From assembly GCA_007745835.1 (NCBI GenBank), contig CP036424.1:2839968-2903967 (forward strand): a stretch of 64,000 nt of DNA, read 5' to 3'. Each line of letters opens with the position of its first letter. Position 1 is the stretch's first letter. This DNA comes from Planctomycetes bacterium MalM25. GTDB lineage: Bacteria > Planctomycetota > Planctomycetia > Pirellulales > Lacipirellulaceae. The notes beneath the pieces were generated by a model, which saw only the letters and a program-made list of their open reading frames with translations, had not been told where the DNA came from and did no database searches. Shown one piece after another: positions 21,648-28,852 of the stretch. The position numbers were made by a program, and so were the translations under genes.

Positions 21648-22457
21648 ATGCAAGCTGCGTTTCATCCTCTCTACTTTGGCGCGCTAAGCGTTGCATTGAT
21701 GGCGACGCCCGCCTCGGCCTCGATCCTCGATGACTTCAATTCGGCCACACTGATCACGGACTTCCAGTTCGACGATGCGCTCGGCACGGCGATCGAAAGC
21801 ACGGCGAACACGGCCGATCCGGCCGCCCCGTTCGATTCGGACGCCGACTTCAGCGCGGCCGCCACGAACGGCCTCGGTCAGTTCGATGGCTCCGGCAAGG
21901 ACAACACCGCGTTCGGTTCGGTCTACTCGGACATCACGGGCATCTCCTCCGGCCGCGTGCTGGCTTACTACGATGTGACCTGGGCTTTTGACGAGCAGGT
22001 CTTCGACGGCAGCCAAGACGAAGAATTCCGGCTCTCGCTGGTTACGAACGACCCGCGGTCAACGTTCATCACCGGCGAGACGTTCTTCACACGCACTTCG
22101 GCGACGGAAGTGGAACTCCGTGGCAACGCGGTGGGCACCGGGTCCGTCGACACACCTACCGTAACTTTGGGCAGCAGCGGTAGCCTGCTGACAATCCTCG
22201 AAGTCGATCTGGACGCGGAAACGATCGAGCTCTGGTACTCGGCCGATGGCGGAGTCAGTTTCCTCTCGACCGGGGCCGGATCGATTGAGCCAACCCGTGG
22301 CGTCGAGTCGGTCCGGCTGGTCCTCAACGAGGACTTCTCCGATGACAGGCTGCTGATCGAGCGGTTCGCCGTTGCAGTGATCCCCGAGCCGACGTCGCTC
22401 GTCGTGCTGTCGCTCGGCTGCCTCGTCTCGGCTTGCCGGCGAAAGCCCGCCCGTTGA
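21648..22457 (+). CDS. PEP-CTERM sorting-domain protein
   Basis: 269-aa secreted protein: signal peptide (about 1-24), one beta-rich domain, and the tail VIPEPTSLVVLSLGCLVSACRRK. The body has the signatures NGLGQFDGSGKDNTAFGS, NDPRSTFIT and SIEPTRGVESVRLV, which recur in the second half of the large protein at 25809-28619, so they are paralogues. No catalytic motif is recognised; surface or matrix role inferred. Preceded by the structured leader at 21451-21553. Confidence 0.85.
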   Translation: MQAAFHPLYFGALSVALMATPASASILDDFNSATLITDFQFDDALGTAIESTANTADPAAPFDSDADFSAAATNGLGQFDGSGKDNTAFGSVYSDITGISSGRVLAYYDVTWAFDEQVFDGSQDEEFRLSLVTNDPRSTFITGETFFTRTSATEVELRGNAVGTGSVDTPTVTLGSSGSLLTILEVDLDAETIELWYSADGGVSFLSTGAGSIEPTRGVESVRLVLNEDFSDDRLLIERFAVAVIPEPTSLVVLSLGCLVSACRRKPAR

Positions 22458-22522
22458 GCGGCGCCTTTTACGGTAGACGCCTCTTAGCCGCCGCCCCCCG
22501 GGGCGGCGGCACGTTGGAACGC

Positions 22523-24244
22523 ATGAAGTTGGCCCGGTCACCCATTGCCCGTCGTGGATTGCTCGCGATGAGCGTCGTTTGCGTGTTGAGCGCAGCGGCG
22601 CCCGCGGTGCAGACGGCGACCGGCGTCTCGTGGGCGATCGCCACGGGGCACCCCGAGGCGACCGAAGTCGGCGCCGAGGTGCTGCGTGCCGGGGGTAACG
22701 CGATCGACGCCGCTGTCGCCGCCTCGCTTGCGCTCGGTGTGGCCGAGCCGTACGGCTCGGGCTTGGGCGGCAAGCTCGTCATGCTCCACCGCAACGGCAA
22801 AACGGGCGAGGTCACCTGCATCGAAGCGCTCTGCGCTTCGCCCGCAGCGACCGACCCCGCCGAGTTCGCTTCGCTCAGCTCGCGACAGCGCAAATACGGC
22901 TACCGTTCGGTCTGCGTGCCGGGCCTACCGGCGGGGCTGCACGCGGCCCACGAGCGCTGGGGCTCCAAGCCGTGGCGTGGGCTGACCGCTCCGGCGACCA
23001 AGCTGGCGCGCGAGGGGGTCACCGTCTCCCAAGCGATGCGTGAACTCTGGGCCCCGCACCAGAAAGACCTGGCGGCGGACCCCGAAGCGGGCCGGCTCTA
23101 CCTGGTCGATGGTGAGACGCCCGCCGTCGGCGATCGCTTGGCGAACGCCGACTTAGCCGCCACGCTCGATCGCTACGGCGAACGGGGCGCCGACGGTTTC
23201 TACCGAGGCGTGACCGCCGCACGCATGCTCGACGCGGCGCAGGCCGCGGGGTCGCCGCTCTCAGCCAACGACTTGGCGACCTACAAGGCCCGGGTCACTC
23301 AACCGTTGGCGGTCAACTACCGTGGCTACCGCGTCTTCAGCAGCCCGCCGCCTCTGACCGGGGGAGTCACCGTGTTGGCGGCACTCAAGTCGCAGGAGTC
23401 GGCCGACTGGGCAGCGGGCCAACCACGCGACGCCGTGTACGTGGATCGGCTGTCGCGAAGTCTCCAAGTCTTCTATCCGAGGATCAGCGAGCGGGTCGCC
23501 GACACACCGGACGCGGCCGACTTCGCCCGCCGCTTGCTCGCCCCCGCGTCGATCGAAGCGGCGACTCGTCGAGCGCTCCAGCTCGATCCGGCCAACCCCG
23601 CAGCAACGCCCGCGCTCAGCCGAGCTGAGGGCTCCAACGACGACCTGCCCAACGCGAGCACCAGTCACTTGGTGGTCGCGGACTCGGAGGGGAATCTCGT
23701 CAGCTTGACGCAGTCGCTCAGCCTGCACTTCGGAGCCGCGGTCGTGGCCCCGGGCACCGGCGTGCTGCTGAACGACAGCATGAGCAACTTCGCGACCAGC
23801 TGGAAAGCCTCGCCCAACTACGTGGCCGGCGGCAAACGCCCACGCAGCACGGTCTCGCCCGTGATCGCCACGCGCGACGGCCTACCCGCCCTCGCCCTGG
23901 GCATCCCCGGCGGCCAGCGCATCCCGACAACCACGCTGCAGCTGTTGGTCGACACGCTCGGCTCGAACGTGCCGCTCGACGAGGCGTTCGACCGGGACCG
24001 CTTCCACCTGCGTCGCCCGATCAGTTCCAAACAGCCCAAGAACCACCTCGACGTGGAAGAGGGCGCCGACGCCGCGGTGACCGCCACGTTGCGTGCCGGG
24101 TTGAAAGAGCGTGGCTGGCTGACGACCGGCAAGCCGCGCAACGGGCGGTACTTCGGCGGTGGCAACGCGATCCGCGTGCGTCCGGGCGGGGTTCTGTTCG
24201 CGGTCGCCGACCCCCGCCGCACCAACCACGCCGCGGCCGAATGA
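22523..24244 (+). CDS. ggt: Gamma-glutamyltransferase family protein
   Basis: 573-aa secreted Ntn-hydrolase that transfers or hydrolyses gamma-glutamyl groups (for example from glutathione). Signal peptide about 1-32. Family landmarks: GHPEATEVGAEVLRAGGNAIDAA; GSGLGGKLVML; the self-cleavage and nucleophile site NAST-SHLVVADSEGN with Thr 380 expected as nucleophile; VLLNDSMSNF; RSTVSPVIA; and GIPGGQRIPTTTLQLLVD. The large/small subunit split is expected just before Thr 380. A 7-residue extension (ALSRAEG) lies just before the site. ATG 22523 gives the signal peptide. The stop overlaps the next start (ATGA at 24241). Confidence 0.9.
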   Translation: MKLARSPIARRGLLAMSVVCVLSAAAPAVQTATGVSWAIATGHPEATEVGAEVLRAGGNAIDAAVAASLALGVAEPYGSGLGGKLVMLHRNGKTGEVTCIEALCASPAATDPAEFASLSSRQRKYGYRSVCVPGLPAGLHAAHERWGSKPWRGLTAPATKLAREGVTVSQAMRELWAPHQKDLAADPEAGRLYLVDGETPAVGDRLANADLAATLDRYGERGADGFYRGVTAARMLDAAQAAGSPLSANDLATYKARVTQPLAVNYRGYRVFSSPPPLTGGVTVLAALKSQESADWAAGQPRDAVYVDRLSRSLQVFYPRISERVADTPDAADFARRLLAPASIEAATRRALQLDPANPAATPALSRAEGSNDDLPNASTSHLVVADSEGNLVSLTQSLSLHFGAAVVAPGTGVLLNDSMSNFATSWKASPNYVAGGKRPRSTVSPVIATRDGLPALALGIPGGQRIPTTTLQLLVDTLGSNVPLDEAFDRDRFHLRRPISSKQPKNHLDVEEGADAAVTATLRAGLKERGWLTTGKPRNGRYFGGGNAIRVRPGGVLFAVADPRRTNHAAAE

Positions 24245-25785
24245 CCCCGTCTCTCTCAGTATCGCCGATCCCTTTGAATCGCGTCCGAGCCCTCGCCGTC
24301 CTGCTGCTGACACTCGCCAGCGGCGTTGCATCGGGGCAGATCACGCTCAGCGGGAACTTCGACCACGGCTCGCTCGATCTCGCGAACAGCTCGGTGGCCG
24401 GTTCCTTCGTGCAGCTCGCCGGGCGCGACAACTTCAACCCGGGGCAGTGGAAGTGGCTCTACTTCTCGGCCGACGGGGTCGCCGGCGAGGCACCCACCTT
24501 CCAGATCGACGACGATTTCGTCACCGGCGGCGGGAATCTCAACGACCACGAGATGGTCTACAGCTACGACCAGGACGAGTGGTTCTTCTTCGATAACAAC
24601 GCCCGCAACGCGGCGGCCGACACGTTCACCTTCTCGAACAACGCCGCCTTCGCAAACGACCGCGTGTACGTCGCGTACGGCTTACCTTACTCCGTTGGCC
24701 GAGCGGTGAACCACGTCGCAGCGATCGCCTCCAGCCCCTGGGTCGCGCCGACTCTGTCGGGCGACGCGAACCTCGTTGTGGGTCAATCCCCCGGCGGGTT
24801 CGACGACCTCGGCCGTGGCGTGCCCCAACAGGACCTCTACGGCTACCGCATCACCGACCCGGACGCGACCAACGCCAAGGCGAAGGTTGTGCTCGCGGGC
24901 GGCGTCCACTCCAACGAGACCCTCGGCAACCACACGCTCGAGGCGATGGTCGATTACTTGCTGGGCGACACGCTCGAGGCGGGCTTGCTCCGGCGCCGCG
25001 CCGAGTTCTACGTCTACCCGATGGTGAACCCTGACGGCCGGCTGGCGGGGTACAACCGCAGCACGGTCGAAGAGCCCAACCTCGACCCCAATCGGTTCTG
25101 GGACCCACCCAACTACGGCGGTCAGACCGAGATCGAAGCGATCGGCGAGGCGATGATCGCCGACACGGGGGGCGACGTCGATTTCTTCATCGACTTCCAC
25201 TCGACGGTCCAGAAGGGCTCGGGCCATTTCGCCTTCATCGATCTGGACCGCAACTTTCACCTGAACCCCGTCTGGCAACGGTTCTTGGAGTTGGAACCAA
25301 CAGTCGGCGAATCGGACGCCAGCCTCATCAACAACACGGGCGCCAAGTTCGGGCTCGAACAGCTCGACGCCGGTTTCACGATCACGTTCGAGACTCGCTT
25401 CCTGGCGGGTGAGAACGAGGATCGCTTCGTGACCCTCGGGCAGAACTTTGGCCAAGCCTTCGCGGACGTCCTCGCGACTCCTTTCGGCGATCTCGATTTC
25501 GACGGCTTCGTCGGCGGCGACGACTGGCTGATCTTCACGCAGTTCGCCGAGACCGAGACCACCGGCCTCTCCGCCATCGCGTCCTACGCACGCGGCGACC
25601 TGAACCAGGACGGAGTGGTCGACGTGTTCGACTTCGGCCTGTTCAAAGAGGCTTACGAAGCGGAGAACGGCGCCAGCGCCTTCGCCCGCCTCCTGGCCGG
25701 GGTTCCCGAACCGGGCGCCGGCACGCTGCTCACGCTGGCTATGACGCTATTGGCTACTCAGACGAGACCCATCATCCGCGGCTGA
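24241..25785 (+). CDS. Secreted M14 zinc carboxypeptidase with dockerin-like and PEP-CTERM modules
   Basis: 514 aa. Signal peptide about 1-32; N-terminal beta-sandwich (about 33-190); M14 peptidase about 195-415 with zinc ligands His 223 and Glu 226 (GGVHSNETLGN), His 320 (FIDFHST), substrate-binding NPDGRLAGYN and DPNRFW, and catalytic Glu 384 (FETRF); dockerin-like repeats (GDLDFDGFVGGDDWLIFTQ, GDLNQDGVVDVFDFGLFKE) about 420-475; PEP-type tail VPEPGAGTLLTLAMTLLATQTR. All key M14 residues are present, so activity is expected. It overlaps the gamma-glutamyltransferase gene by ATGA, suggesting a peptide-degrading pair. Confidence 0.9.
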   Translation: MTPSLSVSPIPLNRVRALAVLLLTLASGVASGQITLSGNFDHGSLDLANSSVAGSFVQLAGRDNFNPGQWKWLYFSADGVAGEAPTFQIDDDFVTGGGNLNDHEMVYSYDQDEWFFFDNNARNAAADTFTFSNNAAFANDRVYVAYGLPYSVGRAVNHVAAIASSPWVAPTLSGDANLVVGQSPGGFDDLGRGVPQQDLYGYRITDPDATNAKAKVVLAGGVHSNETLGNHTLEAMVDYLLGDTLEAGLLRRRAEFYVYPMVNPDGRLAGYNRSTVEEPNLDPNRFWDPPNYGGQTEIEAIGEAMIADTGGDVDFFIDFHSTVQKGSGHFAFIDLDRNFHLNPVWQRFLELEPTVGESDASLINNTGAKFGLEQLDAGFTITFETRFLAGENEDRFVTLGQNFGQAFADVLATPFGDLDFDGFVGGDDWLIFTQFAETETTGLSAIASYARGDLNQDGVVDVFDFGLFKEAYEAENGASAFARLLAGVPEPGAGTLLTLAMTLLATQTRPIIRG

Positions 25786-25808: not shown

Positions 25809-28619
25809 ATGCAACGCTTCTACGCCATCATCGCTGTGATCTGGCTCGCCGTCGGGACCGCGTCCGCGGTCGACCTCGAGTCGTTCGAGTTCGGCGACGC
25901 CAACGACACGGCCCTGACCGCCGCTGCCAACACCGCCAACCCGGGCAATTCGTGGTTCTACGACGAGGAGGCGACCACGCCGGGCGACGCTTCGACGGGC
26001 GACGTCTCCTCCGTGCAGACCGGCTCGTACCGCGTGGTCACGGACAGCGCGTTCGATACGGGTTTGGAGTCTCGGTACCTGGACATCGCTAACGTTGACA
26101 GCGGGCAGGTCTTCCTCTCCGCAACCCTGAGCAGTTGGCAGTTCAACGCCTACGACAGCACGAACAACGAACAGCTCCGCTTCACTTTCCTTGACGACGA
26201 CACGGGCAACAGCGGATCGACCGTGACCGCCCAGATGCAGATCCGCCGCAACGCCGACACCGGCTCGATGGAGCTGTTCGGCGACGCGATCGGCACGGCG
26301 GGCTCGTTCGACATCGCCAACACGGTCGATCTGCCGGACGGGCAGGCCACGCCGTTCACCATGGTGCTCGCGCTCGATAAGTCCTCGAACAGCTTTGAGG
26401 TCTTCTACAAAGACGGATCGAACCCGTCGCAGTCGCTCGGCCTGGGGGGCGTGTCGCGTGCCCGGGACGCCAACTCGATCCGTATGGTCACCAACAACTT
26501 CGGGGCGGAGAACTTCCCCGACTTCAACGTGTTCAACGAGTTCGCAAACATCGACCGCATCGCGGTGAGCGACACGAACCCCCTCACCGACCTGATCACC
26601 CTAGAGGTCGATCGCGACACCGGCGCGATGACCCTCAACAACACGTCTGGGGCCTCAGTCGCCGGCGTGACGGGCGTAACGCTCGATTCAGCGACGGGTT
26701 CGGTTGATCTCTCCGACTTTATCGATTTCAGCGGCACGCTCGCAAACAGCCAGATCGTGGCTCTCGATTCGGCCCCCGGATCGGCCCCCGGCCTTTGGGT
26801 GCGCACCCCGGTCGAGGACATCACCGCGACGCTCAACATCGCCGGCGGGGACCGCACGGTCGACGTCAACTTCGTGGGCAACGGCGGCCTCAAGTGGATC
26901 ACCGGTGACCTCGACTTCGACGGCGCCCTCGACGCCGACGACTACGGCATCCTCACCCTCAACGCCGAGACCGATCTGTCCGGGCTGTCGTCCGCCGCCG
27001 CCTACCAGCTGGGCGACCTCAACGACGACGGCGCGAACGACGTGCTCGACTTCGGGATCTTCAAGGACGACTTCATCGCCGCCAACGGCGCGCCCGCCTT
27101 CGCCCGCCTGGTCGCCGGCGTGCCCGAGCCGGGCACGGGCGTGCTCGCCTTGGCTTGCGTCGCCACGCTGTTCGGAGCTCGCCGGCGTAGCGGCGGGTCA
27201 ATCACCGCCAATCACCGCATGACGAGCCACCCGATGACTCCCAGACACGCTCCCCTGTTCGCCCTGCTCGCCTCCTTCGCCCTGCTCAGCGCGGCTCGCC
27301 CCGCCAACGCCGTGGTGCTGCACGACTTCCTCTTCAACGACACCGCGGGCGTCGCAATCGAAGCCGCGGCGAACAGCGTCGATCCGCTGACCCTCTTCGA
27401 CGCCGACTCCGACTCCACTGGCGTGACAACCAACGGCTTGGGCCAACTCGACCTATCGGGCAAGGACAACACGTCCTTCGGTTCGCACTACATCGACATC
27501 AACCCCGGGATCACGGACGGCAAAGTCTACGGCGTCTTGGAGGCGACCTGGGACTTCCAGAGTGTTCTCGACCCGGCCGAGAACGAGGAGCTGCGGATAT
27601 CGCTCATCAGCAACGACCCGAGGTCGACGTTCATCACCGCGCAGGTCGAGATCGAGCGGACCGACGACGACGAACTCGTCATCTTCGGCAACGCGTTCGG
27701 GACCGGCTCTTCCAACATCCCAGCGGCCACCCTGAACGGCGGCAGCCTCACCCAGACGGACACCTTCGTGACGGTGCTCGAGGCCGACCTGACGCTCGAC
27801 ACGTACGAGGTGTTCTTCTCCGCCGACGACGGGGCTTCGTTCCAATCGATCGGCGCTGGGGCCATCGACCCCACCCGTGGCGTTGAGTCCGCACGGCTTG
27901 TGTTCAACAACGACTTTGTCGGTGACAACGTGCTGCTCGATCGGTTCTTCTTCGCCGAAGACGAGCTCCCCTTCGACCTCGACCCGGAAGCTCCGGACCG
28001 CCTGACGCTCTATGTCCACCCGATCTCCGGCCACGTGGCGATCGTCAACGACACCGAGACCGACTTCGACATCGATTACTACCGGGCGCAGAGCGGCGAC
28101 GACTCGCTCGTGCCGGCGCGATGGAACAGCCTGCAAGACCGGACCGTCGACGCGGTTGATGGGGCGGACGGCGGCTCGATCGCCGGCGACGGCGTGGGCG
28201 AAACCTGGACCGAGGCGGGCGGCTCCGACGCCGGCGTCTTGTCCGAGTCGTTCTTGCTTTCCAGCTCGGTCGTGTCCGGCGGCGAGACGCTCCCCCTCGG
28301 CGCCGCCTTCGACCTGAACGGCGACGACCAGCAGCTTACCTTCGAGTACCGCGACGCCACGGACAGCAACGTCTTCGACGGCGAAGTGGTGGTCGGCGAG
28401 CTGCTGCCCGGCGACTTCAACCTCGACGGCGTTGTCGACGCGGCCGACTACACCGTCTTCCGCGACAACGTCAGCGGCCTGTTCACCCCCGCCGACTACA
28501 CGACCTGGGCGAACAACTACGGCGCAACGCTCGCGGCGCCAGCCGTAGCCGTCCCCGAGCCAGCCACCCTCGTGATCGTCGTCTCTGCGGTCATCCTTGG
28601 CTGCCGTAGGAGGCAGTAA
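25809..28619 (+). CDS. Two PEP-CTERM proteins fused in one reading frame
   Basis: 936 aa with two complete export cassettes in tandem. First unit (about 1-468): signal peptide, beta-rich domain, dockerin-like repeats (GDLDFDGALDADDYGILTL, GDLNDDGANDVLDFGIFKD), tail VPEPGTGVLALACVATLFGARRR. Second unit (from about 471): MTSHPMTPRHAPLFALLAS, a second signal peptide ending ARPANA, a domain paralogous to the protein at 21648 (NGLGQLDLSGKDNTSFGS, NDPRSTFIT, AIDPTRGVES), repeats (GDFNLDGVVDAADYTVFRD) and tail VPEPATLVIVVSAVILGCRRR. At 27219 the sequence ATGA offers a start with a stop one frame away, as in neighbouring overlaps, so a 1-nt insertion or 2-nt deletion probably fused two genes. Confidence 0.82.
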   Translation: MQRFYAIIAVIWLAVGTASAVDLESFEFGDANDTALTAAANTANPGNSWFYDEEATTPGDASTGDVSSVQTGSYRVVTDSAFDTGLESRYLDIANVDSGQVFLSATLSSWQFNAYDSTNNEQLRFTFLDDDTGNSGSTVTAQMQIRRNADTGSMELFGDAIGTAGSFDIANTVDLPDGQATPFTMVLALDKSSNSFEVFYKDGSNPSQSLGLGGVSRARDANSIRMVTNNFGAENFPDFNVFNEFANIDRIAVSDTNPLTDLITLEVDRDTGAMTLNNTSGASVAGVTGVTLDSATGSVDLSDFIDFSGTLANSQIVALDSAPGSAPGLWVRTPVEDITATLNIAGGDRTVDVNFVGNGGLKWITGDLDFDGALDADDYGILTLNAETDLSGLSSAAAYQLGDLNDDGANDVLDFGIFKDDFIAANGAPAFARLVAGVPEPGTGVLALACVATLFGARRRSGGSITANHRMTSHPMTPRHAPLFALLASFALLSAARPANAVVLHDFLFNDTAGVAIEAAANSVDPLTLFDADSDSTGVTTNGLGQLDLSGKDNTSFGSHYIDINPGITDGKVYGVLEATWDFQSVLDPAENEELRISLISNDPRSTFITAQVEIERTDDDELVIFGNAFGTGSSNIPAATLNGGSLTQTDTFVTVLEADLTLDTYEVFFSADDGASFQSIGAGAIDPTRGVESARLVFNNDFVGDNVLLDRFFFAEDELPFDLDPEAPDRLTLYVHPISGHVAIVNDTETDFDIDYYRAQSGDDSLVPARWNSLQDRTVDAVDGADGGSIAGDGVGETWTEAGGSDAGVLSESFLLSSSVVSGGETLPLGAAFDLNGDDQQLTFEYRDATDSNVFDGEVVVGELLPGDFNLDGVVDAADYTVFRDNVSGLFTPADYTTWANNYGATLAAPAVAVPEPATLVIVVSAVILGCRRRQ

Positions 28620-28770: not shown

Positions 28771-28778
28771 ATAGCGAG

Positions 28779-28852
28779 CGACGCAGACGGGACTCGAACC
28801 CGCAACCTCCGGATCGACAGTCCGGGGCTCTAACCAATTGAGCTACTGCGCC
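28779..28852 (-). tRNA. tRNA-Asp (anticodon GTC)
   Basis: On the minus strand the sequence folds as a complete cloverleaf of 74 nt: acceptor GGCGCAG with CTGCGTC (one G-U), D-arm AGCTCAATTGGTTAGAGC, anticodon stem CCGGA/TCCGG with loop CTGTCGA giving anticodon GTC, and T-arm GCGGG-TTCGAGT-CCCGT. The discriminator base is G, as expected for tRNA-Asp. The terminal CCA is not encoded. Confidence 0.96.

Follow-up and report, generated by a model that had tools for sequence, protein, structure and literature searches.

A single gene in the window (the whole 64,000-nucleotide stretch of DNA that was analysed) encodes two complete PEP-CTERM surface-protein units in one frame, each with its own signal peptide and sorting tail. 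It probably specifies a secreted polyprotein, in which signal peptidase and exosortase would cut on either side of a membrane hairpin and free separately sorted proteins. The single frame, its conservation, the retained signals, an exosortase gene and many multi-tail genes are read directly from genome sequences. With somewhat less confidence, we favour the existence of a class of two- to five-unit secreted polyproteins in Planctomycetes, in which exosortase, alongside signal peptidase, would cut the chain internally as a polyprotein protease.

Architecture of the fused gene

The ORF at 25809-28619 of the forward strand comprises 936 codons, is open from end to end and has GGAGG upstream of its own start (table 1). 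The first-pass annotation of this DNA had described an in-frame pair of PEP-CTERM units whose second signal peptide is internal, and this is borne out by the ORF, by PF07589 and by the residue positions, as is the order given for the internal tail, in which PEP, a hydrophobic stretch and Arg residues are followed by Met and a signal peptide. PF07589 matches two stretches of the protein (E 5.7e-07 for the whole protein), of which the internal one is the better. The PEP motif, the hydrophobic helix and the basic cluster are present in both tails; the extreme C-terminal position is true of the second tail, and the first has about 476 residues after it. Pfam Dockerin_1 matches module 2 only, at 13.7 bits against a gathering cut-off of 22.9.

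The structure model of the whole protein has a pLDDT of 60.7, and the ectodomain core modelled as a single domain from 15 sequences has a pLDDT of 82. The top PDB matches of the domain model are mostly L-type/legume lectins, for example Emp46p, with E about 1e-6 and probability 1.00, at TM 0.36-0.54 and rmsd 6 or more. A ConA-like fold is therefore likely for the modelled ectodomain core, and a role in sugar binding would be a guess.

Table 1. Features of the fused gene and its upstream neighbours (window positions)
Feature	Position	Strand	Basis or detail
Single-unit PEP-CTERM protein, upstream	21648..22457	+	TIGR02595 16.4 bits, cut-off 16
Gamma-glutamyltranspeptidase	22433..24244	+	PF01019 E 1.4e-118
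M14 zinc carboxypeptidase with dockerin-like part; PEP tail by eye	24241..25785	+	PF00246 E 2.3e-13
First signal peptide, residues 1-20, ending TASA	25809..25868	+	By eye (hydropathy, -3/-1 rule)
Module 1 ectodomain	25869..27122	+	Beta domain like ConA-like lectins (fold), then dockerin-like repeats
Dockerin-like repeats of module 1	about 26904-27113	+	By eye
Internal PEP-CTERM tail	27123..27188	+	PEP 439-441, hydrophobic helix, Arg 458-460; PF07589 438-460
Short linker, Arg cluster to Met 471	27189..27218	+	
Internal (second) signal peptide, ending ANA (499-501)	27219..27311	+	Hydropathy, -3/-1 rule
Module 2 ectodomain	27312..28553	+	Homologous lectin-like domain and dockerin-like part (GDFNLDG from 28410)
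C-terminal PEP-CTERM tail	28554..28616	+	PEP 916-918, RRR; TIGR02595 just below cut-off

Conservation of the fused frame

Partners in one open frame without stops were sought in 59 related genomes; the gene is present in fused form in ten further genomes of the family, with 40-60% identity to the window's protein. Among 43 family genomes, largely the same as those 59, 12 (the window's own included) have the gene, fused or split, at a threshold of E 1e-40, and none of these adds to the partners already known from the wider set. Relatives with the syntenic locus include Botrimarina hoheduenensis Pla111 (G003), B. colliarenosi Pla108 (G002), Bythopirellula polymerisocia Pla144 (G025) and a Planctomycetales MAG (G021); the window's own genome falls in the genus of G002 and G003. 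Twelve syntenic loci were read, and the comparison of the junction in relatives, which the first-pass annotation had suggested, gave one open frame in 11 of them, the window included; the twelfth, in Adhaeretor mobilis HG15A2 (G020), is split into two same-frame ORFs parted by TAG and TGA, with an AAGGA-like site before the second. The fusion is not essential, since only these 12 of the 43 family genomes have the gene or its split form and the units are separate in Adhaeretor mobilis.

The ATGA at 27219-27222 is placed as had been claimed, with ATG in the frame of the protein and TGA in the +1 frame, and its resemblance to the overlapping starts and stops of neighbouring genes is what recommends a sequencing or assembly error, namely a 1-nucleotide indel at 27190-27225, as the source of the long frame. 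However, the same open junction, free of in-frame stops, is present in ten other assemblies, and the 678 junction codons of the 11 fused copies contain no in-frame stop, with 26 and 13 stops in the other two frames; the probability of such an error is negligible. Because the fused copies keep the tail and the signal peptide (retained in all 11) and their junction codons are without in-frame stops, the fused ORF is, to judge from its sequence, real and not an indel artefact. Frameshifting or translational coupling at the ATGA was considered and rejected: the ORF that ends there (26704-27222) is that of the +1 frame, and ATGA is present, by eye, in four of the 11 fused copies. An origin by gene fusion is plausible, considering the separate adjacent genes in Adhaeretor mobilis and in two paralogous loci, but the 1-nucleotide insertion by which it had been explained is not supported. 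In module trees the fused rows fall on one side of a branch for module A, with weak support (67/87), and the tree of module B needs two changes; the fusion may have a single origin, which these trees do not establish. The two paralogous loci (L061 and L062, in G007 and Adhaeretor mobilis) contain a homolog of module 1 and then a separate gene, whose front domain differs from module 2 and whose rear part is the same; this is perhaps the unfused arrangement.

Nei-Gojobori estimates put dN under dS at the junction in all six pairs compared, with ratios of 0.34-0.67 in five of them and a saturated dS in the other. This substitution pattern indicates that the junction is under constraint, although at the protein level it changes faster than the modules. 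The 11 fused proteins were collected by homology and not by motif, and in all of them P439, E440, P441, R458 and R459 are invariant, while the helix between them varies. At the predicted signal peptidase site, position -1 is Ala in ten copies and Gly in one, and position -3 is A, G, S, T or V in all 11.

These positions bear on the possibility that the fusion is real and the product stays uncut, as one surface protein threaded through the membrane by the hairpin, with the internal PEP a remnant or only an anchor. The greater variability of the junction relative to the modules speaks for such a protein. Against it, all 11 doublets retain the internal PEP and the -3/-1 residues despite a variable helix, and 61 genes of widely differing modules share the arrangement, the tails outside the doublets having been found by the PEP motif. 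We hold an uncut product to be rather unlikely.

Junctions between units

The distance from the Arg cluster to the next hydrophobic core ranged from 0 to 34 residues in the junctions scanned. In three fused copies (G005, G013 and G018) it is 0 or 1 residue, and there is no start codon before the core. Given such short linkers, the Arg cluster of the tail appears to double, in these three copies, as the basic start of the signal peptide.

Altogether, 65 internal tails were scanned in 53 loci. A core with a mean hydropathy of 2.0 or more follows in 64 of the 65 junctions, against 3.3% of 1300 control windows from ectodomains; an AxA-like site is also present in 64, by a loose rule with no control. 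These loci also have 104 terminal tails, in 92 of which the Arg cluster is followed by fewer than ten residues (median one).

A second protein could also arise by a separate start at an internal ATG, in which case the junction would be open simply because the genes are tightly packed. This agrees with the in-frame ATG found near the second signal peptide in eight of the 11 doublets, and with the 11 of 65 junctions where an ATG is preceded by a loose Shine-Dalgarno-like match. On the other hand, 48 of the 65 junctions are without ATG between the Arg cluster and the core, and 37 have no ATG, GTG or TTG there, for which internal starting was rejected as the main route; none of the 11 doublets has a stop at the junction, and no Shine-Dalgarno match was found before either in-frame ATG of the window's gene (Met 471, nucleotide 27219; Met 476, nucleotide 27234). 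As the general explanation, separate initiation is quite improbable. At the 11 junctions where such a loosely matched ATG is retained, separate translation may nevertheless add to the amount of the second unit.

Genes with several sorting tails

Sixty-one genes were read that continue past an internal tail with a signal peptide and another unit. Of the 27 Planctomycetota genomes that carry them, 22 belong to the window's family and four to other families of its order, while one (G122) lies outside the class. The genes were obtained from 11 of 12 syntenic loci, 17 of 20 fetched regions and, in the remaining sets, 20 of 20, 12 of 12 and one of three. The other three fetched regions (L078, L079 and L080) held ordinary tails only. 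In three of the 61 genes (L069, L126 and L134) the motif found no second tail, and L134 runs off its contig. Because related bacteria carry further such genes, with up to five tails in a frame, the joint looks like a real feature and not like a sequencing mistake.

The window's own genome has a second case, a protein of 1368 amino acids with three units, whose junctions have almost no linker. It has partners over the full or nearly full length in G007, G013, G017, G021, G028 and G033, and same-frame pieces in G005, G018 and G023. Among 150 PF07589 matches listed for this genome (150 of 240 candidates scored, at E up to 10, so that not all are above the cut-off), five lie in two multi-match frames, and by eye no other frame is shared by two of the matches listed. 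At the same loose limit PF07589 has matches in 13 of 14 control genomes too, none of them above the cut-off.

In another closed genome of the same family (G015), 32 of the 150 PF07589 matches listed, all above the cut-off and counted by eye, share 14 frames with two to four matches each, and all 14 were read. Twelve frames of this genome contain 22 internal tails, and both an AxA-like site and a core of at least 2.0 come after 21 of them; the remaining tail has a core of 1.92, with the AxA present. Eleven of the 12 frames were picked for repeated PF07589 matches only and one has a single match. These 11 are the fairer test, the selection of two other region sets, partly for matches crossing the junction, being one that favours complete hairpins.

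Three observations concern the make-up of the longer frames. One of the 14 frames of G015, that of L158 from nucleotide 755, of 1512 codons, has five sorting tails by motif; two of its adjacent units, of 262 residues each, are almost identical, which suggests a recent in-frame duplication of a whole unit, and its first unit is without its front part. Many of the third units start with a common NDRxYxFGDD-like motif, and the two units ahead of them are very diverse. The final place in three-unit frames may have a fixed role.

A junction model (A1) is not specific: at E 0.01 it picks up 57 of 59 relatives, with ordinary tails among the matches. Phylum scans with the model, which covered Planctomycetota, gave matches in 11 of 294 genomes at 1e-7 (22 candidates scored per genome) and in at least 80 of 393 at 2e-6 (16 candidates scored per genome), and they return mostly ordinary tails. 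Outside the family, the matches listed that cover 38 or more of the 50 positions without a stop are in G053, G122 and G046. G053 and G122 have real two-unit genes; in the stretches read, the tails of G046 and G054 are near the end of their frames. Within these Planctomycetota scans, multi-tail genes look rare outside the family. In G046, which is of the same order, PEP-CTERM tails also occur in open frames of 7330, 8905 and 12608 codons (contigs C1 and C11), giant surface proteins.

Proposed processing

In the polyprotein reading, the first signal peptide would start Sec export of module 1, and the internal PEP tail would halt the transfer, with its Arg cluster staying in the cytoplasm. The next hydrophobic stretch would re-enter the translocon as a signal peptide and export module 2, and the junction would thus form a two-helix membrane hairpin. 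Such a stop-transfer and re-start is expected of a helix and Arg cluster followed by a signal peptide because of the positive-inside rule, which Haft et al. (2006, PMC1569441) applied to the PEP-CTERM tail in their account of it. Exosortase would then cut at each PEP, and signal peptidase behind the second signal peptide. One passage of a ribosome would thus yield two surface proteins, sorted independently and in a 1:1 ratio, and the leftover hairpin would be degraded. The gain could be equal amounts of partners that are made and exported together. We infer the topology, both cleavages, the equal ratio and its benefit. In its boldest form, which is highly improbable, exosortase would join the cut end to the fresh N-terminus of the next unit, so that the hairpin is spliced out.

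The window's own genome has one exosortase gene, a 471-amino-acid ORF with a TIGR02602 score of 121 bits against a cut-off of 105.55. In a survey of 39 genomes it was matched as two pieces of a single frame, and 37 of the 39 have an exosortase match. The matches in G002, G013, G015, G023 and G038 are within open frames of 1739-1769 codons, possibly large fusion proteins.

Relation to known systems

Each unit resembles the substrates of the PEP-CTERM/exosortase (EpsH) system (TIGR02595/PF07589), being composed of signal peptide, ectodomain, PEP, helix and Arg cluster, and the exosortase gene is likewise in the same genome. According to the tail description of Haft et al. (2006, PMC1569441), the PEP-CTERM tail is near the extreme C-terminus, 87% of the tails having fewer than ten residues after them, with a median of three, and the very few much longer ones may be non-functional. 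In contrast to that C-terminal placement, there are here 87 internal tails in all (65 and 22); a core of at least 2.0 comes after 85 of them, and an AxA-like site after 86. As far as sequence can tell, these conserved internal copies argue against the view that the long-tailed exceptions are non-functional.

Processing at internal signal peptides has precedents. FbcH, the cytochrome b/c1 precursor of Bradyrhizobium, is a bacterial precursor cut at an internal signal peptide, but it is a single respiratory gene without a sorting tail. Signal peptidase also releases successive units from those enveloped-virus polyproteins that have helix-signal hairpins; these differ in being viral and in having no exosortase-like cut. 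In mammalian IGSF1, signal peptidase cuts at an internal signal sequence, and its authors state that they were unaware of other cellular proteins so processed (PMC9162367). The likeness to IGSF1 is the internal signal peptide within one chain; however, IGSF1 is eukaryotic, is without sorting tail or exosortase, and is one case and not a class.

In the titles and abstract openings listed from the literature searched, which included few subscription journals and preprints, there was no description of PEP-CTERM polyproteins or internal tails, nor, in those on internal signal peptides and sortase polyproteins, of such a gene class; by term search, PEP-CTERM appears in a Planctomycetota review (PMC12078418) only in the reference list. 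This silence is weak evidence for the novelty of the internal-tail class. PEP-CTERM has so far been treated as a C-terminal tag, and a conserved class with internal tags would suggest that exosortase can act within a chain. If true, this would be a rare bacterial case of a host-encoded secreted polyprotein, and both the position rule and the sequence in which the two cleavages occur would become directly testable. For annotation, it matters that internal-tail genes resemble assembly errors and could be wrongly split or flagged.

Gene neighbourhood

The upstream single-unit protein has 49% identity to the lectin-like domain of module 2. The coordinates of the gamma-glutamyltranspeptidase gene are those of the longest ORF, and its true start is probably further in. 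The M14 carboxypeptidase gene adjoins the fused gene on its upstream side, and in all 11 syntenic loci from relatives the corresponding place directly upstream is taken by a PEP-tailed ORF of about the same size, compared by size and tail only. The longer gene order appears to be kept in the loci of the relatives named above. Directly downstream of the fused gene is a tRNA-Asp (gtc) on the reverse strand, at 28778-28852 of the window.
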